Positions 18,638 through 34,087 of a stretch of 64,000 nt of DNA are shown one piece after another. The stretch lies in assembly GCF_016593255.1 (NCBI RefSeq), contig NZ_AP023212.1:2024001-2088000 (forward strand). Reading direction: 5' to 3'. The translations under genes were made by a program, and so were the position numbers. The stretch comes from Hydrogenimonas urashimensis (GTDB lineage Bacteria; Campylobacterota; Campylobacteria; Campylobacterales; Hydrogenimonadaceae). Position 1 is the stretch's first letter, and each line of letters starts with the position of its first letter. The notes under the pieces are model-generated. The model searched no databases. It was given only the letters and a program-made list of their open reading frames with translations, and was not told the origin of the DNA.

Positions 18638-21241
18638 ATGAGTTCGATCGTCAAGAAGCTATCGATGATAGCGATCGGTACTCTGGTAGGTGTGTCGATG
18701 GCCTCCGCCAGTTCAGAGCTTGAAAAAGTGATGAAAGAGCGGGGACTGACGCAGCAGGATCTGCTGGCGGCAGCCAAAACCTACACACCCAGCGGCGGAC
18801 GGGACAAATACATCGTATTCAGTTCCGGTGGACAGTCCGGACAGATCATCGTATACGGTGTACCGTCCATGAGAATTTTGAAGTATATCGGTGTCTTCAC
18901 GCCCGAGCCCTGGCAGGGATGGGGATATGACGATGACACCAAGAAAGTGCTGGCCCAGGGTAAAATTCGCGGTAAACAGATCACCTGGGGTGACACGCAC
19001 CACCCGGCGATTTCCGAAACGAATGGCAAATACGACGGCAAGTGGCTGGTCATCAACGACAAGGCCAACCCGCGTCTCGCCGTGATCGATCTGAGCGACT
19101 TCGTTACCAAACAGATCGTCGTCAACCCCGTTTTCAAATCGGACCACGGCGGGGCTTTCTTTACGCCCAACAGCGAATATATCCTCGAAGCGTGCCAGTA
19201 CGGTGCACCGCTTGATAACAACTACCATCCGATGGATGAGTATGCCGAGAGCTTCAGAGGTGGTGTCACTGTCTGGAAATTCGACCATAAACACGGAAAG
19301 ATCCTTCCGGAAAAATCGTTCACGATCGAAATGCCCCCCTATATGCAGGACCTCTCCGATGCCGGTAAAGAGGCGAGCTACGGATGGGGTTTCACCAACT
19401 CTTTCAATTCCGAAATGTATACCGGTGGTATCGAAAAGGGGCTTCCACCGTTTGAAGCGGGAATGAGCCGGAACGATACCGACTACCTGCATGTCTATAA
19501 CTGGAAAAAACTGGCCAAACTGGCGGAAAATCCCAAAAACGTCAAGATCATCAACGGTCACAAGGTCATTCCGATCGATGTCGCCGTCAAAAACAATGCC
19601 CTTTTCCTGATTCCTGAACCGAAATCTCCACACGGTGTCGATGTCAGCCCGGATGGCAAATATATCGTTGTCTGTGGCAAGCTCGATACCCATGCGACGG
19701 TTTACAGCTGGGATAAAATCAAAAAGGCGATCGACAGCAAAGATTTTGTCGGCAAAGATCCCTACGGTATTCCGATCATCGACCTGAAAAAAGCGGCGCA
19801 CTGTCAGGCTGAATTGGGCCTCGGACCCCTGCATAACCAGTACGGACCGAAATGGAAAACGGAAGGGGAGATCTATACATCTCTCTATGTTGACAGCCAG
19901 GTTGTCAAATGGAACTACCTGAAATGTAAAGTCGAAGACCGTGTCAACGTCAACTACAACATCGGCCACCTCTGCGGTATGGAGGGCAAAACGGAAGATC
20001 CTCAGGGCGAATATATCATCGCGCTCAACAAACTGGCGATCGACCGCTTCAATCCCATCGGGCCTTTGCATCCGCAAAACCACCAGCTTATCGATATCCG
20101 CGGCAAGAAGATGCAGCTTCTGTACGATATGCCTCTGCCTCTGGGTGAACCCCACCAGGCTGTTGCGATCCGTGCCAGCAAGCTCCATACCCATGTTCGC
20201 TACAAGATGGGCACCAACCCCTTCACCGGCAAAATCCATGAAGGCAAGACTCTGGCGGGACAGGAGAAAATCGTTCGCAAAGGCAACCATGTCTATGTCT
20301 ACGGTACCGTTGTACGTTCGCATATCAACCCAGAGCATGTCACTGTCAATCTGGGAGATACGGTCACCTTCTACCTGACCAACCTGGAGCGGGCGGAAGA
20401 CGAAACCCACGGATTTACTGTGGATGATTACAATATCCATGCCTCTCTCGAGCCTGGCAAAACGGTTGCATTGACATTCAAAGCCGACCGCGAAGGTGTC
20501 TTCCCATACTACTGTACAGAGTTCTGTTCGGCGCTTCACCTGGAGATGATGGGTTATCTGCTCGTCAAAGATCCGAACAAGAAATATGTCTCCGCGCATA
20601 AACTGAAAATGGCGAAAATGTCTCCCGAGCAGCTGAAAAAAGAGTATGAGAAGATCGTTGCGACCAATGCGGCGACCGACAAGGTCATCCAGAGTGTCGT
20701 GAAGTTCCTCAAAGAGAACCATTACGAAAAATATCCGGTCGTCAAGCAGCTCGTCGAGGATGCCCTCGATCAGTACGGCAAGATTCCCGAGCAGAAGAAG
20801 AAAGCTGACGAATATCACAAAAAAGGTGATCTTGAAAAAGCGATTCTGTTTGAGAACATGATCTGGCAGTACATGGTCAAAACGGCGGACGTCGGCATTC
20901 GTGCCCGAGACTTGCTGATCCGCAAAATCGCGACACCGATGAGCGAAGCGGCCAAACGCGGTGAAGTCGCCTTCAACGAAGGTGGATGCGGTGGTTGCCA
21001 TGTTATCGGCAAAGTTTCGTCCGGACCGGATTTGACCGGTGTTCTCCAGCGACACGAAAATGGTGAAAAATGGGTAGCGGAATTCATCAAAGATCCGAAA
21101 TCCAAATATAACGATCCGTATGTCAAATCGATGATCAACTACTTCAATCTGCGCATGCCGAATCAGGGTATGAGCGATCAGGAGATCAAGGATATCATCG
21201 AATACTTCAAGTGGGTGGATGAAAACGCCAACCTCTTCTAA
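18638..21241 (+). CDS. nosZ: Nitrous oxide reductase, clade II, with C-terminal cytochrome c domain
   Basis: Periplasmic enzyme reducing N2O to N2. 867 residues, longer than clade I NosZ because of the fused heme domain known from Wolinella-type enzymes. A Sec signal peptide (about 1-25) without a twin-arginine motif is typical of clade II. The beta-propeller (about 60-540) carries the His ligands of the CuZ site, including GGAFF and SPHGVDVSPDGKY surroundings. The CuA cupredoxin domain has His591 and Cys626-x3-Cys630-x3-His634-x2-Met637. The heme motif CGGCH is at 784-788. AAGGAGG precedes the ATG. It is the first gene of the nos cluster and has its own FNR-type promoter. Confidence 0.98.
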   Translation: MSSIVKKLSMIAIGTLVGVSMASASSELEKVMKERGLTQQDLLAAAKTYTPSGGRDKYIVFSSGGQSGQIIVYGVPSMRILKYIGVFTPEPWQGWGYDDDTKKVLAQGKIRGKQITWGDTHHPAISETNGKYDGKWLVINDKANPRLAVIDLSDFVTKQIVVNPVFKSDHGGAFFTPNSEYILEACQYGAPLDNNYHPMDEYAESFRGGVTVWKFDHKHGKILPEKSFTIEMPPYMQDLSDAGKEASYGWGFTNSFNSEMYTGGIEKGLPPFEAGMSRNDTDYLHVYNWKKLAKLAENPKNVKIINGHKVIPIDVAVKNNALFLIPEPKSPHGVDVSPDGKYIVVCGKLDTHATVYSWDKIKKAIDSKDFVGKDPYGIPIIDLKKAAHCQAELGLGPLHNQYGPKWKTEGEIYTSLYVDSQVVKWNYLKCKVEDRVNVNYNIGHLCGMEGKTEDPQGEYIIALNKLAIDRFNPIGPLHPQNHQLIDIRGKKMQLLYDMPLPLGEPHQAVAIRASKLHTHVRYKMGTNPFTGKIHEGKTLAGQEKIVRKGNHVYVYGTVVRSHINPEHVTVNLGDTVTFYLTNLERAEDETHGFTVDDYNIHASLEPGKTVALTFKADREGVFPYYCTEFCSALHLEMMGYLLVKDPNKKYVSAHKLKMAKMSPEQLKKEYEKIVATNAATDKVIQSVVKFLKENHYEKYPVVKQLVEDALDQYGKIPEQKKKADEYHKKGDLEKAILFENMIWQYMVKTADVGIRARDLLIRKIATPMSEAAKRGEVAFNEGGCGGCHVIGKVSSGPDLTGVLQRHENGEKWVAEFIKDPKSKYNDPYVKSMINYFNLRMPNQGMSDQEIKDIIEYFKWVDENANLF

Positions 21242-21350: not shown

Positions 21351-21392
21351 TTGACCTGTATCAAATAATAGATAGACAATTTAATGTATAAT
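21351..21392 (+). promoter_or_regulatory. Second FNR-type promoter, upstream of nosB
   Basis: The box TTGAC-N4-ATCAA at 21351-21364 is followed, after 22 nt, by TATAAT at 21387-21392. The expected start near 21399 puts the box at -41.5, the same geometry as at nosZ, and gives a 24-nt leader to the nosB ATG. Confidence 0.75.
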
Positions 21393-21422
21393 CAACCCAA
21401 CTTTATTCATAAGGACAGAGCT

Positions 21423-22211
21423 ATGAAAAGTTCATTGACCAAGGCGAGAATATTTACATTCATCGCGTTTGGGCTGCTGATGTACTATTTTGTCATTCCG
21501 GCAGTGTTTACCCACGATGTGATAGAGCTGGTACGTGCGGGAAAGGCCGACAAGATTCCTCCCGTAGCCTACAAGGTGTGGAACTACTACGCGAAAAACA
21601 TATACGTCAGCCCCTCCACACCCAAAGAGGCGGTAGGCGATCTAAAGAAAATGATAGAAGAGGATGCAGAACTCTCTGTCGTCTCCGCCCCTATCTGGTA
21701 TGTGGCGCTTGAAGCGCCCAACTACCCCAAAGAAGCCTTCCCGGAAGGGATTCCCGTCTATTACCACTTCGACGGATTCAGTGGTGACGTGCACGAGATG
21801 AACACGATCAACCATTATATCGGTATGGATCCGATGGAAAGGGGAGCACCCTATCTGCGCGCGCTGGCGCCCTATGCCCTTGTGCTCGTGGCACTTTTAA
21901 TGATCTATTACATGGTGTATGACAGCAAAATCCTGGATTTGCTGATGCTGCTTCCCGTTGTACTGCCTGTCATATTTTTGGGATTTTATGCCTACTGGCT
22001 CTACTGGTTCGGCCACCATATGCACGAGTGGGGAGCTTTCAAAATCAAACCCTTCATGCCCACGGTTTTCGGTGACGGCAAAGTGGCCCAGTTTACGACC
22101 CATTCCTATCCGACGACGGGCTTTTGGATACTGCTGGCCATCAGTGCATTCAGTCTGTTGGCGATCATTTCCAAGAAAAAAGCGCGCAAACTGGCTGCGG
22201 CAGAGGCATAA
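21423..22211 (+). CDS. nosB: NosB, membrane protein of Wolinella-type nos clusters
   Basis: A 262-residue membrane protein matching NosB by position directly after nosZ and by topology: one N-terminal span (about 10-28), a periplasmic region of about 120 residues, then four hydrophobic spans ending in a basic tail. His/aromatic-rich loop WFGHHMHEWGAFKIKPF between the last spans could contact a metal or quinone. NosB has no proven biochemical function; it is restricted to clade II clusters and presumably helps NosZ maturation or electron supply. ATG 21423 is preferred because AAGGA precedes it and upstream in-frame starts lie before the predicted transcript start. Confidence 0.85.
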   Translation: MKSSLTKARIFTFIAFGLLMYYFVIPAVFTHDVIELVRAGKADKIPPVAYKVWNYYAKNIYVSPSTPKEAVGDLKKMIEEDAELSVVSAPIWYVALEAPNYPKEAFPEGIPVYYHFDGFSGDVHEMNTINHYIGMDPMERGAPYLRALAPYALVLVALLMIYYMVYDSKILDLLMLLPVVLPVIFLGFYAYWLYWFGHHMHEWGAFKIKPFMPTVFGDGKVAQFTTHSYPTTGFWILLAISAFSLLAIISKKKARKLAAAEA

Positions 22212-22223
22212 TCAGGCAGGTTG

Positions 22224-23468
22224 ATGCGAAAAGCGGTGATGATGATGGCAACGGCAGCGGGGTTGATGGCGGCCAATGTACTGCAGGAAGCCATCGACCA
22301 TGCCGAACCCGGTTCCAGGCTGGAACTGCCGGCGGGCGAATATCACGGGAATATTTTCATCGACAAGCCGCTGATTATCGATGGCGTCGACCAGAAGGCA
22401 AAAATAGTCGGAGATGAGAACGGAACCGTCATAAAGATCCGAAGCGACTATGTCACTATCAAAAACCTGACCATTCTTGGCAGCGGAAGCGAACATGAAA
22501 ATGTCGACGCCGGCATTTCGATAAAAAACGCGAAGCATGTGACGGTGGATCACTGCAGGATCGATGACTGCCTTTTCGGTATCGACCTGGAGCAGGTACA
22601 CGAATCGCAGCTGACACACAACTGGATACGCTCGAAGCCCTTTTCGCTGGGCTTGCGGGGCGATGCGATACGTCTTTGGTACAGCAACGACAACAACGTG
22701 AGCTACAATACGATCACCCATTCACGGGATATGGTGGTCTGGTACAGCCACGGCAACACGATCGCCCACAATTTCGGGGAGTACAGCCGCTATTCGCTCC
22801 ATTTCATGTATGCGGGAAAGAATGACGTTCTCTACAACACCTACGAGCATAATTCGGTCGGCATCTTTTTCATGTATTCGCAGGATACCGTGGCGATCGG
22901 CAACGTCATCAAAAATTCGCTGGGTACGACAGGGCTTGGAATCGGTCTAAAGGATGCCAGCAACTTTACGCTGATCGACAATACGCTGATCTACTGCGCG
23001 CGGGGGCTTTACATCGACCGTTCCCCGTTTCAGCCCGATATGAACAACACGATCAAGAACAACAGGATTCTCTACAATTCGGAGGGCATCCATTTCCATT
23101 CATTGAGTGTCTCCAACAATATTGTCGGAAACATATTCAAAGGCAATATCGACAATGTGGTTGACGATGACCAGGTGATGCTCCATTCGGTCAAGAATTT
23201 CTGGGACAGAAACTACTGGGATGACTACGAAGGATTCGACAAAGACGGCGACGGCATCGGCGACACGCCGTACCATCTTTTTTACTATGCGGACCGCATG
23301 TGGATGCTCAATCCCAATATCAAGTTTTTCTATGCGTCGCCCATCGTTTCGATAATGAACTTTCTGGCCAAGCTGGCTCCGATTTCCGAACCGGTGATGC
23401 TGTTGAAGGATGACCATCCGGTGATGTTCGAAAAAGATTTAGAAAGGGAGTTCTCCAATGACACCTGA
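22224..23468 (+). CDS. nosD: NosD, copper-site maturation protein
   Basis: Periplasmic right-handed beta-helix protein needed with NosF/NosY for assembly of the CuZ [4Cu:2S] centre. 414 residues with a Sec signal (about 1-17) and CASH/parallel beta-helix repeats from about 60 to 330 (NNVSYNTITHSRDMVVWYSH and similar turns). A C-terminal region with NFWDRNYWDDYEGFDKDGDGIGDTPY follows; I give this only in part as its key residues WDDY and DGDGIGDTPY are the NosD hallmark. It overlaps nosG by 11 nt. Confidence 0.95.
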   Translation: MRKAVMMMATAAGLMAANVLQEAIDHAEPGSRLELPAGEYHGNIFIDKPLIIDGVDQKAKIVGDENGTVIKIRSDYVTIKNLTILGSGSEHENVDAGISIKNAKHVTVDHCRIDDCLFGIDLEQVHESQLTHNWIRSKPFSLGLRGDAIRLWYSNDNNVSYNTITHSRDMVVWYSHGNTIAHNFGEYSRYSLHFMYAGKNDVLYNTYEHNSVGIFFMYSQDTVAIGNVIKNSLGTTGLGIGLKDASNFTLIDNTLIYCARGLYIDRSPFQPDMNNTIKNNRILYNSEGIHFHSLSVSNNIVGNIFKGNIDNVVDDDQVMLHSVKNFWDRNYWDDYEGFDKDGDGIGDTPYHLFYYADRMWMLNPNIKFFYASPIVSIMNFLAKLAPISEPVMLLKDDHPVMFEKDLEREFSNDT

Positions 23469-24261
23469 AGAGAAGAGAAAACGCAGAAAATTCATACAGC
23501 AGATGACAGGGTTGGGTGTTCTCGGCCTTGCCGCGGCCGGTGGTATCCTGAGTGCCCCCTATCTGAAAGCGGCTCCAAGCAGACTTCGTCCACCGGGGGC
23601 GGTACCCGAAGAAGAATTCATCGGCCTGTGTATCAAATGCGGCCAATGCCTGCAGGTATGCCCCTACGATTCGATACTGCTGGAGGATATCGACGGAAAA
23701 GTGGGCGTGGGGATGGCCTATATCGAACCTCGTGAACGCGGATGCTATCTCTGTGAGGCATTTCCCTGTATTCTCGCCTGTCCCAGCGGTGCGCTCAACC
23801 ATGAGCATGACAGCATTGAGTATGTTCATATGGGTGTCGCCGTGGTCCATAACCCGGAAGGGTGTCTTGCCAAAGTCGGCAAGCCCGTACCCGACAGCGC
23901 CATCGACCGCATTTACGAGCATACGAAAGTGCTGACAGAAGAGGAGAAGCGTTCGAAAAAAGTGACCGTCGATCCCAACGATCCGGAAAAAGTCCAACTG
24001 CAGAAAGAGCTGCTTATCAAACTGGAAAAGCATCGCGGTGAGAAATCCTGTACGATTTGCGCCGATATGTGCCCGTTCCATCCCGACCACACACTGGCGA
24101 TCGGCATGGTGGATGCGGCGGGCGGAGGCATGCTTCCGGAAATCAGGGAGGCGTGCAACGGCTGCGGCGCGTGCGTGGAACTTTGCCCGACCGATGTGAT
24201 CAAAGTGATACCGCGCAAAAGCTATACCGACATTTACGGGGGAGGAAACAACAATGCGTAA
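23458..24261 (+). CDS. nosG: NosG, NapG-like polyferredoxin
   Basis: Periplasmic iron-sulfur protein, proposed to pass electrons from menaquinol with NosH. 267 residues. The N-terminus has a twin-arginine-like RRKFIQ followed by a hydrophobic stretch. Four cysteine clusters suit four [4Fe-4S] centres: CIKCGQCLQVCP (about residue 59), CYLCEAFPCILACP, CTICADMCP, and CNGCGACVELCP. Overlaps with nosD before it and nosC1 after it indicate one transcript. Confidence 0.95.
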   Translation: MTPEEKRKRRKFIQQMTGLGVLGLAAAGGILSAPYLKAAPSRLRPPGAVPEEEFIGLCIKCGQCLQVCPYDSILLEDIDGKVGVGMAYIEPRERGCYLCEAFPCILACPSGALNHEHDSIEYVHMGVAVVHNPEGCLAKVGKPVPDSAIDRIYEHTKVLTEEEKRSKKVTVDPNDPEKVQLQKELLIKLEKHRGEKSCTICADMCPFHPDHTLAIGMVDAAGGGMLPEIREACNGCGACVELCPTDVIKVIPRKSYTDIYGGGNNNA

Positions 24262-24817
24262 AATAGTGACAATGGTACTGACAAGTGCCCTGATACTTGG
24301 GCTCGCCGGCTGCGGTGACAAAAAAGAGAAGAAACAAGAGGCACAAAAAAGCGCTCCCGGAGAGATCAAGGTGACGAAAGGCGCAGTGAAAAAGAGTGGT
24401 GCCGAAGAGAAATCGAAAGAGAATACGGGCCAGTTCTACTACTCCTACAACAAAGAGAAGAATGCGACGGAAGAGAAGAGCAACCGCCGAACGACACTCG
24501 ATGCCTACCTCAATATCCGTTCGCCTTATGAAAGAGTGCAGATCGAACTGATGATCAAAAAGCTGAGCAAGGATTTCGTCATCCGATGCTCGCCGTGCCA
24601 TGACGATTACGCCAACGGGGTTATCGGACCGTCGCTTCTGGGCAAGGATGGCGAGTTTATCTATAAACGGTTGATCGCCTTCAAAACGGGCGAAAAGAAG
24701 AATGTACTGATGAAACAGCTCGTCGCGCAGATGGACGACGCCAAACTCAAAAGCATCGCCGACGAAATCGCCGAATTCAACAAACAAATCCAGGAAATGA
24801 GAAAGGGTAGACAATGA
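24254..24817 (+). CDS. nosC1: NosC1, lipoprotein monoheme cytochrome c
   Basis: A 187-residue c-type cytochrome that would carry electrons towards NosZ. The signal peptide ends in a lipobox LAGC (Cys20). A charged Lys/Glu-rich linker (about 25-75) leads to one heme motif, CSPCH, near residue 114, with likely distal Met ligands further on (VLMKQLVAQMDD). Overlaps nosG by 8 nt and nosC2 by 4 nt. Confidence 0.92.
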   Translation: MRKIVTMVLTSALILGLAGCGDKKEKKQEAQKSAPGEIKVTKGAVKKSGAEEKSKENTGQFYYSYNKEKNATEEKSNRRTTLDAYLNIRSPYERVQIELMIKKLSKDFVIRCSPCHDDYANGVIGPSLLGKDGEFIYKRLIAFKTGEKKNVLMKQLVAQMDDAKLKSIADEIAEFNKQIQEMRKGRQ

Positions 24818-25338
24818 TTCGACACATTATCGCTGCAATCGCCACACTTCTGGCCATCTGGGCAATGGTTTTCATGTATCAGCTCGATCGGGAATCGGAA
24901 CGCTTCAAACAGATTCGGGACATCATCGAAAAAACGAAGATGGAGGTGCCCCAGGCCAAAACTTCCACCCCGCCGATTCAGCAGATTGAGGAACCGGTAA
25001 GTGTCGAGGAACAGATGAAGAAAGAAGAGGATGAAGTCGCCAAAAAACTCAAGTCGCTGCGCGAGCGGGCCGGAAGCGCCATGGCGTTCAAAGTGAGCCC
25101 CATGTACAAGCAGAAGTGCTCTTCCTGCCACGGTGTCAACGGGGAAGGTGCGGTCGGGCCGAAACTGATCGGCAGGGATCAGGCTTACGTCTATCAGGCA
25201 TTGATGGACTTCAAATCGGGCAAACGTAAAAACTATGTCATGTACGGACTGCTGATGAAGATGAGCGACGAGGACCTCAAAGCGCTCAGTAAAGAGATAG
25301 GTACGTTTGAAGAGAAAATGAAAGCGGCTGCGGAGTAA
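24814..25338 (+). CDS. nosC2: NosC2, membrane-anchored monoheme cytochrome c
   Basis: A 174-residue paralogue of NosC1 with an uncleaved N-terminal membrane anchor (about 5-22) instead of a lipobox, a Glu/Lys-rich linker, and heme motif CSSCHG near residue 107 followed by GAVGPKLIG. The C-terminal YGLLMKMSDEDLKAL parallels NosC1. It overlaps nosC1 by 4 nt. Pairs with NosC1 in the proposed menaquinol-to-NosZ path. Confidence 0.92.
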   Translation: MIRHIIAAIATLLAIWAMVFMYQLDRESERFKQIRDIIEKTKMEVPQAKTSTPPIQQIEEPVSVEEQMKKEEDEVAKKLKSLRERAGSAMAFKVSPMYKQKCSSCHGVNGEGAVGPKLIGRDQAYVYQALMDFKSGKRKNYVMYGLLMKMSDEDLKALSKEIGTFEEKMKAAAE

Positions 25339-25368
25339 ACCGTTGCCACAACTTTGCAAGGAATAACG

Positions 25369-26280
25369 ATGGATAGATATAACAGCAGCATACGTGATAT
25401 CATCCGAGCGCCTTTCTGGTCCACCTTCTATTACAGGACACACAAAGGGGGCATCCGGCCAACGTGGCGTTTTTGGCGGTGGATTAGTGTTATAGTGATC
25501 AATATCGCTTTTTTCATCTCCTACCACGTAGATGTGCAGCTGCTCGAAGGAACGATGAACGGATCCCGGCTGCTGGGATTTCACCTGATCGATCTTTTTA
25601 CGGCGATCGAAACCTGGGCGGCCACCCATGTGATCCATACCAATATGATTATCGGTTCCGTGACGATCGCCTTTTTCTACATTCTTTTCGGTGGAAAGAG
25701 TTTCTGCGCTTGGGCATGCCCCTACGGTATTTTGAGTGAAATCGGCGAATATTTTCATCAAAAACTGGTGCGCAAAAAGATCATCAAAGAGCGCAAATGG
25801 GATCCGCGCATCCGATTCGCATTTTGGGCCGTCATTCTCATCGTCACTTTCGTCGACGGTTTTCTGGTGTTCGAAGTGATCAACCCGATCGGTATCATCA
25901 GCCGCCTCATTGTCTACGGGTGGAGCCTTGCGGTTGTCTGGGTCGTTGTGATCTTGTTATTCGAGATTTTCTATTCGCGCCGCATGTGGTGCAAATATAT
26001 CTGTCCGGTCGGCACCACTTACAATTTTTTGGGCTGGATCACCGCGACCAAAGTACAGTGGGACATGGACAAATGCGACCATTGCGGGGCCTGCCTGGAT
26101 GCCTGTTTCGAAAACCATGTCATCGAATTCACCAAGCCGAAATATGACAAAGAGCGGAAGGAGAAGGGTGTGAGCAAGCAGTTGGTCGTCAACGGTGACT
26201 GCACGCTGTGCGCGCGTTGTTTCGATGTCTGCCACACCGACGCCTACAATTACACATTCCGACTGAAAGATCTGGTCTGA
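25369..26280 (+). CDS. nosH: NosH, NapH-like membrane ferredoxin
   Basis: 303 residues; with NosG forms the presumed menaquinol dehydrogenase of the N2O-reducing chain. Four membrane spans are seen (about 37-55, 85-108, 145-170, 178-200). Two cytoplasmic Cys-Pro motifs (CAWACPYG, CKYICPVG) are typical of NapH. The C-terminus has two 4Fe-4S motifs, CDHCGACLDAC and CTLCARCFDVC. ATG 25369 follows AAGGA; the upstream in-frame start has no such site. Stop overlaps the nosF start (TGATG). Confidence 0.95.
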   Translation: MDRYNSSIRDIIRAPFWSTFYYRTHKGGIRPTWRFWRWISVIVINIAFFISYHVDVQLLEGTMNGSRLLGFHLIDLFTAIETWAATHVIHTNMIIGSVTIAFFYILFGGKSFCAWACPYGILSEIGEYFHQKLVRKKIIKERKWDPRIRFAFWAVILIVTFVDGFLVFEVINPIGIISRLIVYGWSLAVVWVVVILLFEIFYSRRMWCKYICPVGTTYNFLGWITATKVQWDMDKCDHCGACLDACFENHVIEFTKPKYDKERKEKGVSKQLVVNGDCTLCARCFDVCHTDAYNYTFRLKDLV

Positions 26281-26930
26281 TGGGCAGCATTGTCGTCGAA
26301 GCGAAAAACGTGACGAAAACTTTCATGGGAGTGCGGGTGCTCGACAATGTCTCTCTCTCCATCGCGCTGGGTGAGAGGGTGGCCATGATGGGGCCAAACG
26401 GTGCAGGAAAGACGACATTCGTCCGAACGGTTCTCGGTTTTTACCATATCGATGGAGGTTCGCTCAGGGTCGAGGGATTCGATCCTGCAAAAGAGAGGAC
26501 GAAAGTTTTGCAAAATATCGGTTTCATCCCTCAGCTGCCCCCGCCGGTGAAGCTGAGCATTTCCGAACTTCTGACCTTTGTGCAGCGGAGTACCGGCAGC
26601 CCCAAAGAGGCGATCGTCGCCCAGGCGGAGGCGATGGACCTGGACATTCGCAGCCATCTGCACAAACCCTTTTTCAAGCTTTCCGGCGGCATGAAACAGA
26701 AGCTTCTTATCGCCATCGCTTTGGCGAGACGAAGCCGTCTTCTCATTTTTGACGAGCCGACGGCCAACCTGGATCCAAAGGCGCGGGAGCACTTCTACCG
26801 TCTCCTTTCGTCGATCGACTACGAGCACTCGACGATATTCATCACCCACCGTATCGAAGAGATCGAGGGGTTGGCGAACAGGCGAGTCTATATGGATCTT
26901 GGCAAGGTAGTGGAAGATGAGAGACTATAG
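26280..26930 (+). CDS. nosF: NosF, ABC transporter ATPase
   Basis: ATPase subunit of the NosFY transporter that works with NosD to supply a sulfur-containing component for CuZ. 216 residues: Walker A GPNGAGKTTF (about 38), signature LSGGMKQKL, Walker B RLLIFDEPTANLD, and switch His in FITHR. The ATG at 26280 overlaps the nosH stop. A NosL gene and a repeat tract separate it from nosY, unlike the Wolinella order nosF-nosY-nosL. Confidence 0.95.
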   Translation: MGSIVVEAKNVTKTFMGVRVLDNVSLSIALGERVAMMGPNGAGKTTFVRTVLGFYHIDGGSLRVEGFDPAKERTKVLQNIGFIPQLPPPVKLSISELLTFVQRSTGSPKEAIVAQAEAMDLDIRSHLHKPFFKLSGGMKQKLLIAIALARRSRLLIFDEPTANLDPKAREHFYRLLSSIDYEHSTIFITHRIEEIEGLANRRVYMDLGKVVEDERL

Positions 26931-26981
26931 GTCGCGAAGCGGCTCGCTTCCTCAGATGATCGGTGGTTTCAAGGAAGTGGA

Positions 26982-27086
26982 CGCTCATCGCTCATCGGTC
27001 GGGGGAGGCGTGCTTCGTGCGCCGATTCGCGATTTCGGGTTTTTGGTTTCCTTTTCCCGTTTTCTGTTCTCTGTTCTTTTTGTCTC
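26982..27086 (+). repeat. Degenerate heptanucleotide tract A
   Basis: Sequence with 7-nt periodicity between nosF and the lipobox of the next gene: GCTCATC twice at 26983-26996, and GTTTTCT-GTTCTCT-GTTCTTT at about 27059-27079, joined by T/C-rich, irregular units. It overlaps the N-terminal coding part of the following NosL protein. Confidence 0.6.
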
Positions 27087-27495
27087 CATGACCCTCTTTG
27101 TGACAGGATGTGAAAAAAAAGATTGGCACCAACCGGAGAAAATCCATTGGGACAGAGATATGTGCGAGCGGTGCAAAATGGCCATCAGCGAACGAAAATA
27201 CGCCGTGGAAGTGATCGATCCCAAAACCCGCAGACACTACAAATTCGACGATATCGGCTGCGCGATCCTGTGGTTCAAAGAGGAACATCTCGATTGGGGC
27301 GATGAAGCGATCATCTGGGTCAAAGACGGCAAAACGGGAGAGTGGATCGATGCTAGAAAAGCGTGGTATTCGACCAATAAAATCACGCCGATGGGATACG
27401 GATTCACGGCCTACAAAACCAAAGACGAAGCCGGTGGCGGTGAAGTGATCGATTTCGAAGAGGTCAAACGGCGTGTCATCAAGATAGGACGATGA
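27010..27495 (+). CDS. nosL: NosL-type copper-binding lipoprotein (copy 1)
   Basis: Outer- or inner-membrane lipoprotein that binds Cu(I) and delivers it to apo-NosZ. The NosL domain has CERCKMAI (Cys-x2-Cys-x-Met), then FDDIGCAILW, WIDARKAWY and TPMGYGFTAY. The start is uncertain: GTG 27010 places the lipobox Cys (FVTGC) at residue 34, a normal signal length, while ATG 26917 (14-nt overlap with nosF) would put it at residue 65. The N-terminal coding part is made of the heptamer tract, so a repeat expansion may have rebuilt the signal peptide. It sits between nosF and nosY. Confidence 0.85.
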   Translation: MLRAPIRDFGFLVSFSRFLFSVLFVSMTLFVTGCEKKDWHQPEKIHWDRDMCERCKMAISERKYAVEVIDPKTRRHYKFDDIGCAILWFKEEHLDWGDEAIIWVKDGKTGEWIDARKAWYSTNKITPMGYGFTAYKTKDEAGGGEVIDFEEVKRRVIKIGR

Positions 27496-27570: not shown

Positions 27571-28398
27571 ATGAAAAATCTTGGATTGGTGGCCTACCTG
27601 GATATCAGAGAGAGCCTTCGGGCGAAGTGGTTCTATGTCTATGCCTTCGTATTCGGCGGTCTGATGGGACTCTTTTTCATCAGCGGCATCACCGATTCGG
27701 TGGTGATGGGGTTTACGGGTCTTAGCCGGCTGCTGCTTGTTTTCATTCAGGTAACGATCATCATTCTGCCCATTTTCATTCTCATCACGACGGTCAAGTC
27801 GATCGCCGCGGACCGGGAGAGCAATGTCTTGGAGTATATGCTCTCCTTTCCCATTTCCCTCGCTGAGTATTACTGGGGCAAATTGTTGGGGCGGTTCATG
27901 ACCGTCTTTTTTCCGGTCATCGTCGCCCTTTTTATCGGGGTTGCCTGGGGCCTTAGCCAAGGAGGGGAGATGCCCTGGGCAATGATTTTTCTCTATTCGG
28001 CGCTGATATTTTCCATCTGTATCGTTTTTCTGGGAATCGCCTTTTTCATTTCAACCCTGGTCAAGTCCCACGATGTGGCGCTGGGGCTCTCTTTTACGGT
28101 ATGGATCGTGCTTCTGGGCTTCATCGATGTGGCTTTGATCGGGCTGATGATGCAAAACAGAATCTCCGACGAAGCGATTCTGACGATCGCCATGCTCAAT
28201 CCGCTGGAAGCGTTCCGTATCGGGGCGATCGCGCTGTTTGATCCGGAACTGACCGTCATCGGCCCGGTGGCCTACTATCTTCTGGATACGCTGGGGCACA
28301 CTTTTTTGATGCTTTATGCCGTGGTCTATCCGATCGTGCTGGGAGGGATATTCGCCTTTCTCGGGTATCTGGCGTTTCGAAAACGCGATCTTCTGTAA
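27571..28398 (+). CDS. nosY: NosY, ABC transporter permease
   Basis: Membrane subunit of the NosDFY complex. 275 residues with six hydrophobic spans and the ABC-2 type pattern including TTVKSIAADRESNVLEYMLS followed by PISLAEYYWGKLLGRF, close to NosY family sequence. A GGAGAT-type site lies near the ATG. Together with NosF it would energise transfer of a sulfur species to NosD in the periplasm. Confidence 0.95.
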   Translation: MKNLGLVAYLDIRESLRAKWFYVYAFVFGGLMGLFFISGITDSVVMGFTGLSRLLLVFIQVTIIILPIFILITTVKSIAADRESNVLEYMLSFPISLAEYYWGKLLGRFMTVFFPVIVALFIGVAWGLSQGGEMPWAMIFLYSALIFSICIVFLGIAFFISTLVKSHDVALGLSFTVWIVLLGFIDVALIGLMMQNRISDEAILTIAMLNPLEAFRIGAIALFDPELTVIGPVAYYLLDTLGHTFLMLYAVVYPIVLGGIFAFLGYLAFRKRDLL

Positions 28399-28526: not shown

Positions 28527-29012
28527 ATGAGACGATTGCTGTCGGTATTGATGGTTGTGGCCCTGGGACTTTTCGCGGCACAGAATCAGAAGGTGAAAGA
28601 GGAAGTGGCGTTCGACCCGGTCTACGGTCTGCCGATTGGAAAATATCCGAAGTTCGAGGCGGACGTGATTCTCAAGGACGGCCGTACCATCCGTTTCTGC
28701 TGCGTCAAAGCGATGCTCGATTTCTACTATCGCCCCTGGCTCTTTCCCGAATTCAAGGTAAGCCGTGACAGAAAAGAGATCGAAAGGATGATCGTCAGAG
28801 ACTATCTCGACGGCACGAAAACCGAGGCGGAAAAAGCCTGGTACGTTTACGGCAGCCGGGTTGCCGGCCCCCACGGTGACGACCTGATTCCGCTCGGTTC
28901 GAAGGTTCGTGCCGAACTCTTCGTCAAACGGTACGGAGGCTCGCGTATCATGGATTTCAAGACGGTGAAGCAGAAAGGTTTCGGCCTGATCGATTTCCTC
29001 GACTCTCCTTAA
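28527..29012 (+). CDS. NosL-like protein lacking the CxxCGM copper motif (copy 2)
   Basis: 161 residues with a cleavable-looking signal (about 1-19). It aligns well with the second domain of the next gene: PxYPKFEADV against KHPKWAAFI, RDYLDGTKTEAEKAWYVYGS against RDYYTLKPVWAKEAWYVVGS, GDDLIPLGSKVRAELFVKRYGG against GNELIPFKEKKAAENFMRDHHG. Where NosL has CPVCGM, this protein reads DPVYGL, so both Cys and the Met are gone. It has instead FCCVKAM about 25 residues later. AAGGGGG lies ten nt upstream of the ATG. Likely an altered-specificity or scaffold NosL; function unknown. Confidence 0.82.
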   Translation: MRRLLSVLMVVALGLFAAQNQKVKEEVAFDPVYGLPIGKYPKFEADVILKDGRTIRFCCVKAMLDFYYRPWLFPEFKVSRDRKEIERMIVRDYLDGTKTEAEKAWYVYGSRVAGPHGDDLIPLGSKVRAELFVKRYGGSRIMDFKTVKQKGFGLIDFLDSP

Positions 29013-29061: not shown

Positions 29062-30222
29062 ATGAAGCGTCTGATTGCAGCCTTGTTGCTTGGTATCGGG
29101 CTTTTCGTCTATGCCGATGCGGCGGCGTTTGGCAAGATGGCCACCAAAAAACCGGAACTGATACAGCAGGGACCCCAGAAGATGTGGTGTTCGGTGTGCG
29201 GGATGAATCTGAAGATGTTCTACAAAACATCCCACGCGGTGATCCTTGAAGACGGTACGAAAAAGCAATACTGCTCCATCCGCTGTCTCGCGGCAGACTG
29301 GCCGAATATCTCCCAAAAGGTCAAGAAAATCCTGGTCGTCGATGCGGCGACGGAAAAACTGATCGATGCGAAGCGGGCCCATTATGTCGTCGGTTCGAAA
29401 GTCAAAGGGACCATGAGCATGACCAGCAAGATCGCTTTCGGGTCGCTGGAAGATGCCCGGGATTTTCAGAGAAAATTTGGCGGAAAAATCGTCGATTTCG
29501 ACGAGGCGTTCGCGATGGCACGGGAGAGTCTCGCCAAAGATTCGATGATGATAGCGAAGAAGAAAGAGAAAAAGATGTATCCAATGGGTGAGAGAATCTA
29601 CAAAAAGATGTGCCGGCCCGTGGATGTGTCGAAATATGCCCGCATCAACGAACTCAAAGCGGCAATCAAAACGGAAAAACTCTGCAAACCGATGAAAGAG
29701 AAGCAGCTTCAGGCCGTGGCGCTTTACCTGTGGGACATCAAAGGAGGACACGTCCCCGCATCGCCAGAACGTACCGCAAAGCATCATGGGAAGAACGAAG
29801 GAAATATGCCCGAAGTCGGCAGAGAGGAGAAGTGTCCGGTCTGCGGCATGTTCGTTTACAAGCATCCCAAATGGGCCGCTTTCATCTACTACGAAAAGAA
29901 CGGCAGGCTGGCCCACCTGGCCTTTGATGGTGTCAAAGACATGATGAAATTCTATTTCAACCCCGGCAAATGGGGCGATTACGGCGATATCAAAAAGCAT
30001 ATCAAAAAAATCGTCGTCCGCGACTACTATACGCTCAAGCCGGTCTGGGCGAAAGAGGCGTGGTATGTGGTAGGCAGTGATGTCTACGGCCCCATGGGCA
30101 ACGAGCTGATTCCTTTCAAGGAGAAAAAAGCGGCGGAAAATTTCATGCGTGACCATCACGGCAAGAAGCTGCTGCGATTCGATCAAATCACCCAAGAGCT
30201 TGTCTACAAACTGGATGAATAG
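29062..30222 (+). CDS. nosL: Two-domain NosL protein with cytochrome-like linker (copy 3)
   Basis: A 386-residue exported protein. Domain 1 (about 35-155) has CSVCGM (Cys43, Cys46, Met48) plus YCSIRC. Domain 2 (about 255-380) has CPVCGM (Cys258, Cys261, Met263). Between them (about 172-235) lies a stretch shaped like a small c-type cytochrome, from MGERIYKKMC to LQAVALYLWDIKGG, but without CxxCH. The ATG 29062 has AAGGAGAG upstream and a 20-residue signal peptide. I infer two Cu(I) sites in one chaperone for NosZ loading. The next gene starts inside its last codons. Confidence 0.88.
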   Translation: MKRLIAALLLGIGLFVYADAAAFGKMATKKPELIQQGPQKMWCSVCGMNLKMFYKTSHAVILEDGTKKQYCSIRCLAADWPNISQKVKKILVVDAATEKLIDAKRAHYVVGSKVKGTMSMTSKIAFGSLEDARDFQRKFGGKIVDFDEAFAMARESLAKDSMMIAKKKEKKMYPMGERIYKKMCRPVDVSKYARINELKAAIKTEKLCKPMKEKQLQAVALYLWDIKGGHVPASPERTAKHHGKNEGNMPEVGREEKCPVCGMFVYKHPKWAAFIYYEKNGRLAHLAFDGVKDMMKFYFNPGKWGDYGDIKKHIKKIVVRDYYTLKPVWAKEAWYVVGSDVYGPMGNELIPFKEKKAAENFMRDHHGKKLLRFDQITQELVYKLDE

Positions 30223-30532
30223 AAGAATACGATATTTCGTGCTCATGACCGCCGCCATGGTGGTGGCCTTGGCGGCTGAGATCACCGGTTTCACTCTCGC
30301 AAAAGGTGTGACGGGCGCAGAAAAGAGGCAAAAAAGAGAGTTTGTGGCATGGGTGCAGCTGCCCGATCTCAGTGTTGCGACGGAGGCGCGTTTTATACGG
30401 TTCCGCACCCTGGCCGATGCCTACGCGCCCTTTAACGAAAGTCCCGAACTTCTGGACTATTTCCCCGCCTCTTTCACCTACGCACCCGCCGACAATGTCG
30501 CCAAAATACCTTCGAAGATCGTGTTGAAATGA
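30215..30532 (+). CDS. Small membrane-anchored protein in the nos cluster, unknown
   Basis: 105 residues, not recognised. One N-terminal hydrophobic segment (about 5-25) after three basic residues, then a polar periplasmic part with WVQLPDLSVATEARFIRFRT and a Pro/Tyr-rich end. It overlaps the two-domain nosL by 8 nt and the permease by 4 nt, so it is clearly translated within this operon. Possibly a periplasmic partner of the following FtsX/MacB-type transporter. Confidence 0.65.
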   Translation: MNRRIRYFVLMTAAMVVALAAEITGFTLAKGVTGAEKRQKREFVAWVQLPDLSVATEARFIRFRTLADAYAPFNESPELLDYFPASFTYAPADNVAKIPSKIVLK

Positions 30533-31698
30533 AAAATCTCTTCGCCTTCGCACTGAGTTCTTTGATGCGGCGGGGGAGCAAAAATCTTTTCATTTTCGTC
30601 GTTTTCACGGTGATGATCTTCATTCTCGCTTCGATATTTTCGATTACCCATGCCCTGAAGGCGGAGATGTTCACGACGCTCGAGGCGCTTCCTGACATTA
30701 CGGTACAGCGGATCGTGGCGGGCAAGCAGACCGATATCGATGCGGGGCGAAGCGAGAGGATTGCGCAGATTTTCGGTGTGACCGATGCGCTGCCGAGGGT
30801 CTGGGGATACTACTATTTCCCCCGGGCGGGGGTCAACTTCAGCATTGTGGGGGTGGAAGCCTTCGGAACCCAGTACAAAGCTTCTCTTGAAAGCGTGGCC
30901 GACATCTACGCCGACAGACTGGCCTCCGGCGATACGATGATCGTGGGCAAGGGGGTCGAAGAGACGCTGGCACGCAACTTTTTCAAGGGCTATTTCTATT
31001 TCGTCAAACCCGATGGCGATTTGAAAAAAGTGACCCTCGCCGGGGTCTTCAAACCCGCCACCTCTCTTGAGAGCAACGACATCATCGTCATGGAAAACGG
31101 ACTGGTTCGGGAGATTTTCGGAATGGATGAGGAGGCGGCGACCGACATCGTCGTCCATGTGGCCAATCCCGACGAGGTGCGCACCGTCGCCCGGAAGATC
31201 AGTGAACTCTATCCCGACACCCGGGTCATAACCAAGGAGGATCTGAAAATCAGCTACCAGAATGTTTTCGATTACAAAAGCGGCATTTTCCTGGCGCTGT
31301 TCATCATCGCGATTTTCACCTTTTTCATCATCATCTACGACAAGGCGAGCGGACTGAGCAGCGAAGAGAAACGGGAGATCGGCATTCTCAAGGCGCTTGG
31401 ATGGAAGATCGGCGACATTCTACGGGTCAAGTTCTTCGAGGCCATCGTCATATCGATCGGCGCCTATCTGGCAGCGGTCCTACTGGCACTCGGCTACGTT
31501 TTCGGTTTCAACGCGCCCCTGATGCGCAACCTCTTCATGGGATATTCGGTGCTCAAGCCGCCTTTCGATCTTCCGTTCTCGCTTGATGGCGGAACACTGG
31601 CGCTGATCTTTTTCACGACGGTACCCGTCTATATCGCCGCGACACTGATTCCTTCCTGGAAAGCGGCGACACTGGAGGCGGACGAGGTGATACGATGA
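30529..31698 (+). CDS. MacB/FtsX-type ABC transporter permease
   Basis: 389 residues with the type VII exporter layout: one N-terminal span (about 17-40), a periplasmic domain of about 210 residues, then three spans near 260-280, 305-335 and 355-380. FtsX hallmark: SSEEKREIGILKALGWKIGDILRVKF. Such permeases work as mechanotransmitters or lipoprotein extractors (MacB, LolCE). Pairs with the ATPase at 31853. Being inside the nos cluster, it may act on NosL lipoproteins or copper delivery; this is inference. Confidence 0.85.
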   Translation: MKNLFAFALSSLMRRGSKNLFIFVVFTVMIFILASIFSITHALKAEMFTTLEALPDITVQRIVAGKQTDIDAGRSERIAQIFGVTDALPRVWGYYYFPRAGVNFSIVGVEAFGTQYKASLESVADIYADRLASGDTMIVGKGVEETLARNFFKGYFYFVKPDGDLKKVTLAGVFKPATSLESNDIIVMENGLVREIFGMDEEAATDIVVHVANPDEVRTVARKISELYPDTRVITKEDLKISYQNVFDYKSGIFLALFIIAIFTFFIIIYDKASGLSSEEKREIGILKALGWKIGDILRVKFFEAIVISIGAYLAAVLLALGYVFGFNAPLMRNLFMGYSVLKPPFDLPFSLDGGTLALIFFTTVPVYIAATLIPSWKAATLEADEVIR

Positions 31699-31706
31699 AT
31701 TCTGTT

Positions 31707-31833
31707 GTTGCTCGTTGGTCGTTGGTCGTTGGATTTTCGTTATTGGGCATTGGGCATCGGGCATCGGGCATCGGGGGCCGTTTCGCGGCCTCTTTCCTTT
31801 TCCTCTTACCGGTTTCTAATTTCCGATTTCCTT
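31707..31833 (+). repeat. Degenerate heptanucleotide tract C
   Basis: Between permease and ATPase genes. Units read GTTGCTC, GTTGGTC, GTTGGTC, GTTGGAT, then TTGGGCA twice and TCGGGCA twice, in 7-nt phase up to about 31775. A second block GGTTTCT-AATTTCC-GATTTCC spans 31811-31831. This is the clearest of the three tracts. Confidence 0.75.
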
Positions 31834-31852
31834 CATGGATGGAGGAAAACCC

Positions 31853-32542
31853 ATGCTGATCGAAGTAAAAAACGTGACGAAGGTGTTCAATCCGGGACGT
31901 CCCAACGAGATGACGGCACTGGAAAATGTCTCTTTCGGAATCGAAAGGAACGAGCTGGTGATTCTCAAAGGACCCAGCGGCAGCGGAAAGAGTACGCTGC
32001 TCTCTCTCATCGCCGCGCTTCAGAAGCCCACATCCGGCGAGGTGGTGGTCGACAACGAGCGGGTCTCCAAACTCCCCGACGATTTCGCGGCGCTCTTTCG
32101 CCGTCACAAAATCGGGTTCATCTTCCAGAAATTCAATCTCATTCCCACACTCAGTGTCTTCGAGAATATCATCACCCCCCTGATGCCCGAAAAGCTGGCA
32201 GAAAAAGAGCTCGAGGCCAAGGCCGAACGGGTCATGGCGGAGTTTTCCATCGCGCACAAGCGCAACGAATTGGCCAAAAACCTCTCCGGCGGCGAACAGC
32301 AGCGTACCGCCATCGCCCGGGCACTCGTCAACGATCCGCCCATCATCCTCGCCGACGAACCCACCGCAAACCTGGATGAAAAGCTGGCAAAGGCGTTTTT
32401 GGAGTATGTGGGGCGCATCAAGGAGGAGGGCAAAACCATCGTTATCGCCACCCATGATCCCCTCTTTTTCGGGCTCGACATGACCGACAGGGAGATCGGG
32501 TTGCATAACGGGAAAATCGTATCGGTGAAAAGTGGAACGTGA
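31853..32542 (+). CDS. MacB/LolD-type ABC transporter ATPase
   Basis: A 229-residue ATPase partner of the FtsX-type permease. Walker A GPSGSGKSTLL (about 37), Q-loop FIFQKFNLIPTLSV, signature NLSGGEQQRTAIARAL, Walker B PIILADEPTANLD, and an IATHDP switch. GGAGG lies 7 nt before the ATG at 31853. Family sequence is of the lipoprotein-release/macrolide-export type rather than NosF type. Confidence 0.9.
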   Translation: MLIEVKNVTKVFNPGRPNEMTALENVSFGIERNELVILKGPSGSGKSTLLSLIAALQKPTSGEVVVDNERVSKLPDDFAALFRRHKIGFIFQKFNLIPTLSVFENIITPLMPEKLAEKELEAKAERVMAEFSIAHKRNELAKNLSGGEQQRTAIARALVNDPPIILADEPTANLDEKLAKAFLEYVGRIKEEGKTIVIATHDPLFFGLDMTDREIGLHNGKIVSVKSGT

Positions 32543-32654
32543 TAGGTGAATCGCTGAAATATTCGTCGGCTTCGCCGATGGAGTCATGCAAGAGTACTGG
32601 GGAGCAAGACGACCGGTCGGCCCCGTTTGTTCTCGGCTTCCAAAGGATGCCGGT

Positions 32655-33614
32655 ATGCTGAATCCCGATGTCATCGCCATTGTGATGCTCGACGCCATCC
32701 TTTTTCTCTTCGCTTTGACGGCATTGGCCATTTCGGTGCAGATTGTGCGCAGGTGGGATTCGGCGGCCACGACACCGCTGCAGTACAGGCTCGAGAAACG
32801 CGCCTATCTCGTTGCGACGATCATCAAATTCATCTTCTACCTCAAGCTGCCGCTCTTTGTCTATTTCATCTATACGCTCGACCTGCTTTCTGCTATCCTG
32901 CCCGGTGCCATGTGTGCGGCGGGAGTGACCAATGCCACGGTCTACGGCATGCCGCTTTTTGTCGTCAAAATCCTCGACCTTTACCTCTTCGGTCTCTGGA
33001 TCGTCGTACACACGATCGATATGCACAAACCGGACTACCCCTTCACGAAGATGAAATTCTGGCTTTTTATTCTCATTTTCCCCTTTTTCGCCCTGGAAGT
33101 AGGGCTTGAGGTACTGCATTTTAAAGGCATCAATCCCCATGTCATTGTCAGCTGCTGCGGGACCCTCTTTTCTGCGGCGAAAAGTTCTGCCGCATCGCTC
33201 TTCATCACTCTGCCCGTGCCGGTGATCCTGGCGCTTTTTTACGGCAATTTCGCTCTGATTCTCATGGCGTGGCTGCTGAAACGCCCGGGGCTGACGGCGT
33301 TTTTGAACCTGCTTTTCGTACCGGTGGCGATCGTTTCGCTGATCGCCTTCTTTTCGACCTATGTCTACGAATTGCCTCACCATCACTGCCCCTTCTGCCT
33401 GCTTCAAAGCGACTATCACTACGTCGGCTACCTGATGTATACCGCCCTTTTTGCAGGAACTTTTTTCGGGATCGCCGCCTGGGTGGGAAAAAAGCTGGGG
33501 TATCCGGCGGCAAAACGGTGGACGCGATGGTCACTGATTGGGGATATTTTATATGTTGCTCTGGTATCATTCTATCCGATCGCTTTTTATCTCAAAAACG
33601 GAGTATGGCTTTGA
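32655..33614 (+). CDS. Polytopic membrane protein with CPFC motif, nos cluster
   Basis: 319 residues, not recognised as a named family. About eight hydrophobic spans. Periplasm-facing Cys candidates: CAAGVTNATVYG (about 93), SCCGTLF (about 164), and HHHCPFCLLQSDYHYVGY (about 250), in which three His precede a CxxC pair. AAAGGA precedes ATG 32655. It overlaps the next nosL by 10 nt. The combination of His and CxxC at a membrane edge suggests copper or thiol redox chemistry, possibly reducing or loading NosL proteins; this is inference. Some VKOR-like proteins also use CPFC-type motifs, but I see no overall match. Confidence 0.7.
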   Translation: MLNPDVIAIVMLDAILFLFALTALAISVQIVRRWDSAATTPLQYRLEKRAYLVATIIKFIFYLKLPLFVYFIYTLDLLSAILPGAMCAAGVTNATVYGMPLFVVKILDLYLFGLWIVVHTIDMHKPDYPFTKMKFWLFILIFPFFALEVGLEVLHFKGINPHVIVSCCGTLFSAAKSSAASLFITLPVPVILALFYGNFALILMAWLLKRPGLTAFLNLLFVPVAIVSLIAFFSTYVYELPHHHCPFCLLQSDYHYVGYLMYTALFAGTFFGIAAWVGKKLGYPAAKRWTRWSLIGDILYVALVSFYPIAFYLKNGVWL

Positions 33615-34087
33615 GACGGTTTCTGATAACGCTTTTAGCGCTTTTTGTGGCAGGCTGCAGCGGTTCGGGCGGCGGCAGCGGTCTGAGCAGTCCGGATGGC
33701 GGACCGGTCGCTTTCAAACCGGGCAGTGTCACCTGCCCCCAATGCCACATGGATGTCAAATCCCTGACAGACAGCACAGAGCTGATCGACGACAACGGCA
33801 GGGTGACGGTTTTCGACGATCCCGGATGCATGGCGCTCTGGATGGATGCCCACGGCATCGATCCCTCCTCGGCGAAAATCTATGTCTATACACGCGACAC
33901 CCATCGGTGGATCGATGCGGCAAAAGCGCACTATTCCCAAACCGATCCCACGCCGATGGGGTACGGCTTCGGAGCCTACGAGAAACCGGCCGAAGGGCGT
34001 ATTGCGTTTAAGGAGATGCGGCTTCGGGTTCTGCAGGGGCTGACCCTCAAAGACCCGAAAATCAGGAAAAAACTGCTTGGATATTAG
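33605..34087 (+). CDS. nosL: NosL-type copper-binding lipoprotein (copy 4)
   Basis: 160 residues. Signal peptide with lipobox VAGC (Cys17), a Gly/Ser-rich linker, then the NosL domain with CPQCHM, FDDPGCMALWMDAHG, WIDAAKAHY and TPMGYGFGAYE. It is closest in layout to copy 1 (same FDD-GC and TPMGYGF features). CGGAG precedes the ATG, which lies within the end of the previous gene. Confidence 0.92.
   Translation: MALRRFLITLLALFVAGCSGSGGGSGLSSPDGGPVAFKPGSVTCPQCHMDVKSLTDSTELIDDNGRVTVFDDPGCMALWMDAHGIDPSSAKIYVYTRDTHRWIDAAKAHYSQTDPTPMGYGFGAYEKPAEGRIAFKEMRLRVLQGLTLKDPKIRKKLLGY

Follow-up and report, generated by a model that had tools for sequence, protein, structure and literature searches.

To our knowledge, the nitrous oxide reductase NosZ is the only biological sink of the greenhouse gas N2O. 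The assembly of its CuZ centre is an unsettled question, in which NosL is assumed to act as the copper carrier. NosFY is generally regarded as an exporter of a sulfur species. The NosDFYL complex of P. stutzeri has been solved, with NosL docked on the NosDFY transporter, and the NosL structures we take as references are those of P. stutzeri (7osf/7znq), S. denitrificans (7og7) and A. cycloclastes (2hpu). NosL is reported to bind Cu(I) very tightly. The conserved candidate residues in NosL are the CXM Cys, the CXM Met and one further Met (Bennett et al. 2019, PMC6530538). With a sufficient copper supply, N2O reduction continues in Paracoccus denitrificans lacking NosL (PMC7558416; PMC6530538). 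Published Campylobacterota nos clusters are described with one nosL each (PMC6279868; PMC4794192), and in Sulfurospirillum cavolei the gene named nosL adjoins nosF (PMC4794192, locus tags).

The stretch of DNA analysed here, 64,000 nucleotides of the Hydrogenimonas urashimensis genome (referred to as the window), contains a clade II nitrous oxide reductase cluster with the gene order nosZ, nosB, nosD, nosG, nosC1, nosC2, nosH, nosF, L1, nosY, X and LL, in which X denotes the NosL homologue under study. The features concerned are:

18638 to 21241, forward strand: nosZ, clade II-type nitrous oxide reductase with a C-terminal cytochrome c domain
21384 to 26930, forward strand: nosB, nosD, nosG, nosC1, nosC2, nosH and nosF, in an order matching other Campylobacterota clusters
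26917 to 27495, forward strand: L1, a lipoprotein-type NosL between nosF and nosY (PF05573, 3e-7; start codon uncertain)
27571 to 28398, forward strand: nosY, permease of NosDFY (ABC2_membrane match), usually followed by X throughout the phylum
28527 to 29012, forward strand: X, a NosL-fold protein without copper ligands (161 aa, open ORF)
28614 to 28631, forward strand: DPVYGL, residues 30–35 of X, by alignment a degenerate form of the CPVCGM copper motif
28695 to 28703, forward strand: FCC, residues 57–59 of X, its first Cys at the canonical NosL FCS position
28866 to 28886, forward strand: GPHGDDL, residues 114–120 of X, with His116 replacing the xMG Met and D118-D119 as a family-specific acidic pair
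29062 to 30222, forward strand: LL, a tandem NosL protein (PF05573, 3.8e-56, two stretches)

Four NosL domains score above the Pfam cut-off in the whole genome, all of them at the nos locus. L1 carries a VTGC lipobox together with CERCKM and TPMG motifs, and is the likely copper carrier. Both domains of LL have intact motifs (CSVCGM in the first, CPVCGM in the second); since LL-type proteins also occur in genomes without nosZ, LL probably has a role outside nos. The middle segment of LL, between the two intact domains, is cytochrome c-like and has no haem motif (MGERIYKKMCRP...KPMKEKQLQAVALYLW). A relative's tandem NosL (L035:5543-6898) has in its linker a Cys/Met/His-rich stretch, GCGMKHKRMHGKGCAMKRSGGCQMKNKKSGCKMMKKHHCNHGMKM, which looks metal-binding and is absent from the linker in the window. 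A model of the tandem NosL computed without an alignment was poor (pLDDT 57) and was left out of the results. Further downstream, at 30529 to 34087, an FtsX-like permease, an ABC ATPase and a membrane protein form a module with a NosL-like protein (CPQCHM); the module was met again in many genomes, in some of them inserted between L1 and nosY or placed on the opposite strand.

X itself matched Pfam NosL (PF05573) at 4.2e-16 and 59.9 bits, above the curated threshold (cut-off 24). Its AlphaFold2 model (pLDDT 86.8, pTM 0.77) superimposed on NosL structures with Z 14.3–15.5 and rmsd 2.2 over 117–123 residues, with Z 15.5 and rmsd 2.2 for Shewanella NosL (7og7) and Z 14.8 and rmsd 2.2 for the NosL chain in the P. 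stutzeri NosDFYL complex (7osf/7osg). By profile and by modelled three-dimensional fold alike, X is a member of the NosL fold family. In a profile comparison with P. stutzeri NosL, X scored 1.3e-11 and 47.7 bits vs. 3e-6 and 30.2 bits for L1. The model also showed a distant likeness to the organomercurial lyase MerB (Z 7.3, a weak match only), and for NosL itself a similarity to the MerB fold has been reported (Taubner 2006, as cited in PMC7558416). Residues 2–19 form a predicted hydrophobic N-terminal signal, and, as read from the sequence, there is no lipobox Cys, the first Cys being residue 58; export apparently proceeds via the Sec route into the periplasm. X is thus like the NosL copper chaperone in fold, Pfam family, nos-cluster context and apparent periplasmic export.

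The likeness does not extend to the copper ligands. Alignment of X with the second domain of LL (EKCPVCGMFVYKHPKW in the neighbour vs. FDPVYGLPIGKYPKF in X) bore out, position by position, the claim of an earlier note on this DNA that CPVCGM has become DPVYGL, with Cys1 replaced by Asp30, Cys4 by Tyr33 and Met6 by Leu35. Where P. stutzeri and Shewanella NosL have GAMG and the second LL domain has GPMG, the xMG loop of X reads GPHG. Compared with the NosL copper chaperone, X therefore has Tyr33 in place of the CXM Cys, Leu35 in place of the CXM Met and His116 in place of the second conserved Met (taken as the xMG-loop Met), and the lipid-anchor Cys is missing as well. In our own reading of the alignments, the further Met of Bennett et al. 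would be this xMG-loop Met, so that all the named conserved candidates would be absent from the X of the window.

The same note had pointed to a new FCC. This triplet is indeed present at residues 57–59, but is new only with respect to the second domain of LL, and it is not conserved. Since the corresponding triplet is FCS in the canonical NosL of P. stutzeri and Shewanella and YCS in the first domain of LL, the unusual residue is the second Cys alone. Across the X family the place is occupied by FCC, FCS, FVS, FAS or FSS. A new metal site at FCC could be ruled out, given that FC is ancestral and that the triplet varies within X.

X was recovered from 12 genomes of the same GTDB genus (including that of the window) and from one more distant MAG. 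In all 12 genus copies D-P-x-Y replaces C-x-x-C, with both Cys gone, and D30 and Y33 are invariant across the 13 sequences; intact CxxCGM orthologues, which would have marked X as a case of decay in a single strain, were looked for among the genus copies, and none was found. Over the phylum X takes two forms: families f1, f4, f9 and f10 and some members of f11 have D-P-x-Y, and all others have (C/G/S/T)-x-(V/I/L)-(R/K).

For the phylum, 98 distinct X sequences were counted, leaving out a few rows that were binned wrongly by score and show the same X motifs. None of the 98 has the CXM Cys (R in 47, Y in 32, K in 16, F in 2, T in 1) or the xMG-loop Met (A in 38, H in 26, S in 18, K in 7, G in 7, N in 1, R in 1), and the CXM Met is retained in only 10, while the position-1 Cys (residue 30) is retained in 45. 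An Asp follows xxG in 97 of them; X carries GDD[LI] vs. MGxxL in NosL. K61, D92, G109, S110 and G117 are invariant across the phylum and D118/D119 nearly so. No conserved Cys/His site was found across the phylum sequences; Met63, which lies in a helix of the model and is common to ordinary NosL, is the sole Cys/His/Met position retained in most X. L1-type sequences, on the other hand, have CxxCxM and PM in nearly all cases, and CPVCGM and GPMG are found in LL second domains, apart from a few degenerate sequences of single-domain relatives.

The genomic setting of X was compared over 60 nos regions from 28 genera, which with the window made 61 Campylobacterota clusters. X was located immediately 3′ of nosY in 54 of these 61. 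The median gap is 10 bp (128 bp in the window), and in several clusters the two genes overlap by 4 bp. Genome-wide searches covered the window's own phylum, and X was called by a gap in the scores of profile A2 (single-domain ORFs at 150 bits or above; others at 149.4 bits or below and mostly ORFs of 360–410 aa), except that the X of G224, which carries an insertion, was located by position alone. X was present in 91 of 397 phylum genomes and nosZ in 129, and 90 of the 91 X-positive genomes also carried nosZ (Fisher p of 1e-56, with relatedness ignored); counted by genus, X was found in 28 of the 32 with nosZ. A scan of genome contigs returned only three relatives, all from Campylobacterota or Campylobacterales MAGs, and a plasmid search for X or NosY gave zero matches.

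Within the cluster, X is tied to nosY, because the sole X-positive genome without nosZ (G160) has lost nosZ and retained nosY-X, because the nosY-X pair moves together (being situated upstream of nosZ and apart from nosF in L100, L103, L104, L105, L123 and L127, six clusters in all), and because second nosZ copies with only nosB alongside have no X. This second nosZ type, ca. 68% identical, was seen with nosB alone in L207, L208, L209 and L181, with no nosDFY or NosL nearby. X is not strictly required, since nosZ and nosY occur without it in 32 genomes that belong to a single Campylobacter-like genus, and G228 has nosZ with no NosL of any kind. According to two independent profiles, X is the sole NosL-fold protein in eight genomes (G029, G034, G041, G124, G174, G203, G233 and G276), seven of which are Campylobacter-like (f3g12), the eighth being G276. 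Two loci have an interrupted nosZ: in L122 (G181, which we take to be perhaps Wolinella succinogenes) the gene is split into two reading frames and the X motif reads TCPIKF, and at G251:C15:18915-21507 it consists of two pieces and contains an in-frame TAA, X still being present.

In a NosL tree built without the motif columns, X fell on one side of a branch, adjoining the second domain of LL; a single X clade was only weakly supported (SH-aLRT 12), while the DPxY form was well supported (97) and the L1 branch well separated (SH-aLRT 99). By tree and by sequence (36–40% identity), the second domain of LL and its relatives are the nearest type to X, but they keep CPVCGM and GPMG intact and also occur in nosZ-less genomes, whereas X tracks nosZ and nosY. 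L1 shares the NosL superfamily and the cluster with X, yet differs by its intact lipobox, CERCKM and TPMG and by its separate branch. X evolves faster than nosZ, nosY and nosD, and its dN/dS is 0.06–0.08 in the close, least saturated pairs and 0.07–0.27 in most others (one pair at 0.44), similar to the 0.09–0.32 of L1. X is under purifying selection. The loss of the ligands is phylum-wide and syntenic, which together with this selection upholds the suggestion that the change is functional; decay in a single strain is ruled out by the conservation in genus and phylum and by dN/dS. The literature searched, which comprised papers readable without subscription, yielded no account of a NosL without Cys encoded after nosY, and judged from the alignments X is a conserved NosL branch without copper ligands that is undescribed there.

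Because the fold is kept while the known copper ligands are lost phylum-wide, X probably aids N2O-reductase assembly otherwise than by carrying copper. More specifically, we see about an even chance that the NosDFY maturation machinery of Campylobacterota has in X a dedicated subunit that is free of copper and serves for docking or as a structural part, with L1 carrying the copper. By analogy with the P. stutzeri complex, X would have retained the docking surface of NosL and given up copper. Seated on NosD/NosY, it would play a structural or gating part, such as keeping NosD receptive or orienting NosZ; copper would be supplied by L1, with its CERCKM motif, or by some other source in genomes lacking L1. 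Docking and copper carriage, which NosL combines in Pseudomonas, would in this way be divided between two paralogues. X is linked to nosDFY by gene neighbourhood, as a partner of the NosDFY(L) complex should be, and its higher score against P. stutzeri NosL fits with docking retained by X and copper by L1. Of the three roles guessed at in the earlier note, that of a scaffold is the best supported, because fold, nosY linkage and ligand loss all fit, and it stays an inferred one. The weak point of the division of labour lies in the eight genomes in which X stands alone and the model has no copper carrier: these need copper from elsewhere, or an X that binds some copper itself, the former being possible since P. 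denitrificans copes without NosL as long as copper suffices.

These eight genomes, which have no NosL-fold protein but X beside nosZ, speak for X still being a metal carrier, for Cu(I) or another metal, via rearranged ligands (the first Cys, the Cys of FC(C/S), His116 and nearby Met residues), as do the position-1 Cys in 45 of 98 sequences and the presence of C58, C59, M63, H116 and M142 in the window protein. We nevertheless consider this unlikely, as zero Cys or His are conserved throughout, the only conserved soft residue being M63 in its helix; in several DPxY members neither the FCC place (FVS, FAS) nor position 1 has a Cys, and others have Lys instead of His116. A different metal preference, another guess of the earlier note, is disfavoured likewise, because no conserved Cys/His site is left, with Met63 the only mostly kept position and Cys30 found in under half.

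The same fold as a docking NosL with its ligands lost would also suit a role in antagonism or timing, in which X mimics NosL without copper, takes the place of NosL on NosD (or that of NosD on NosL) and thereby regulates the exchange between NosL and NosZ. The tight gap suggests expression coupled with nosY, but the eight genomes without any other NosL-fold protein are left unexplained; we regard this role as distinctly unlikely. About as doubtful is a part for X and NosY in providing the sulfur of CuZ, with X as the periplasmic partner that guides a NosFY-exported sulfur species to NosZ: genetically X is tied to nosY and not to nosZ or nosF, yet X has no conserved Cys for a persulfide. CuZ does contain sulfide (PMC6530538). 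Finally, that X is a decaying, functionless paralogue is scarcely credible, for despite its faster evolution and its absence from one Campylobacter-like genus its dN/dS is well under 1, like that of intact L1, and it keeps its invariant and near-invariant residues and its constant place behind nosY.

Returning to X as a copper-free docking subunit, we would tentatively extend this, at clearly less than even chances, to Campylobacterota at large: the NosL that docks on NosDFY may be copper-free there and the two jobs split, some Campylobacter-like species may assemble CuZ on a copper-free NosL alone, and the "nosL" behind nosY may often be copper-free. The gene after nosY should not be annotated or counted as a copper chaperone in surveys of clade II nos clusters. 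A copper-ligand-free, nosY-coupled NosL homologue would moreover mean that docking is separable from copper delivery, and may provide a natural handle on the contact between NosL and NosDFY.
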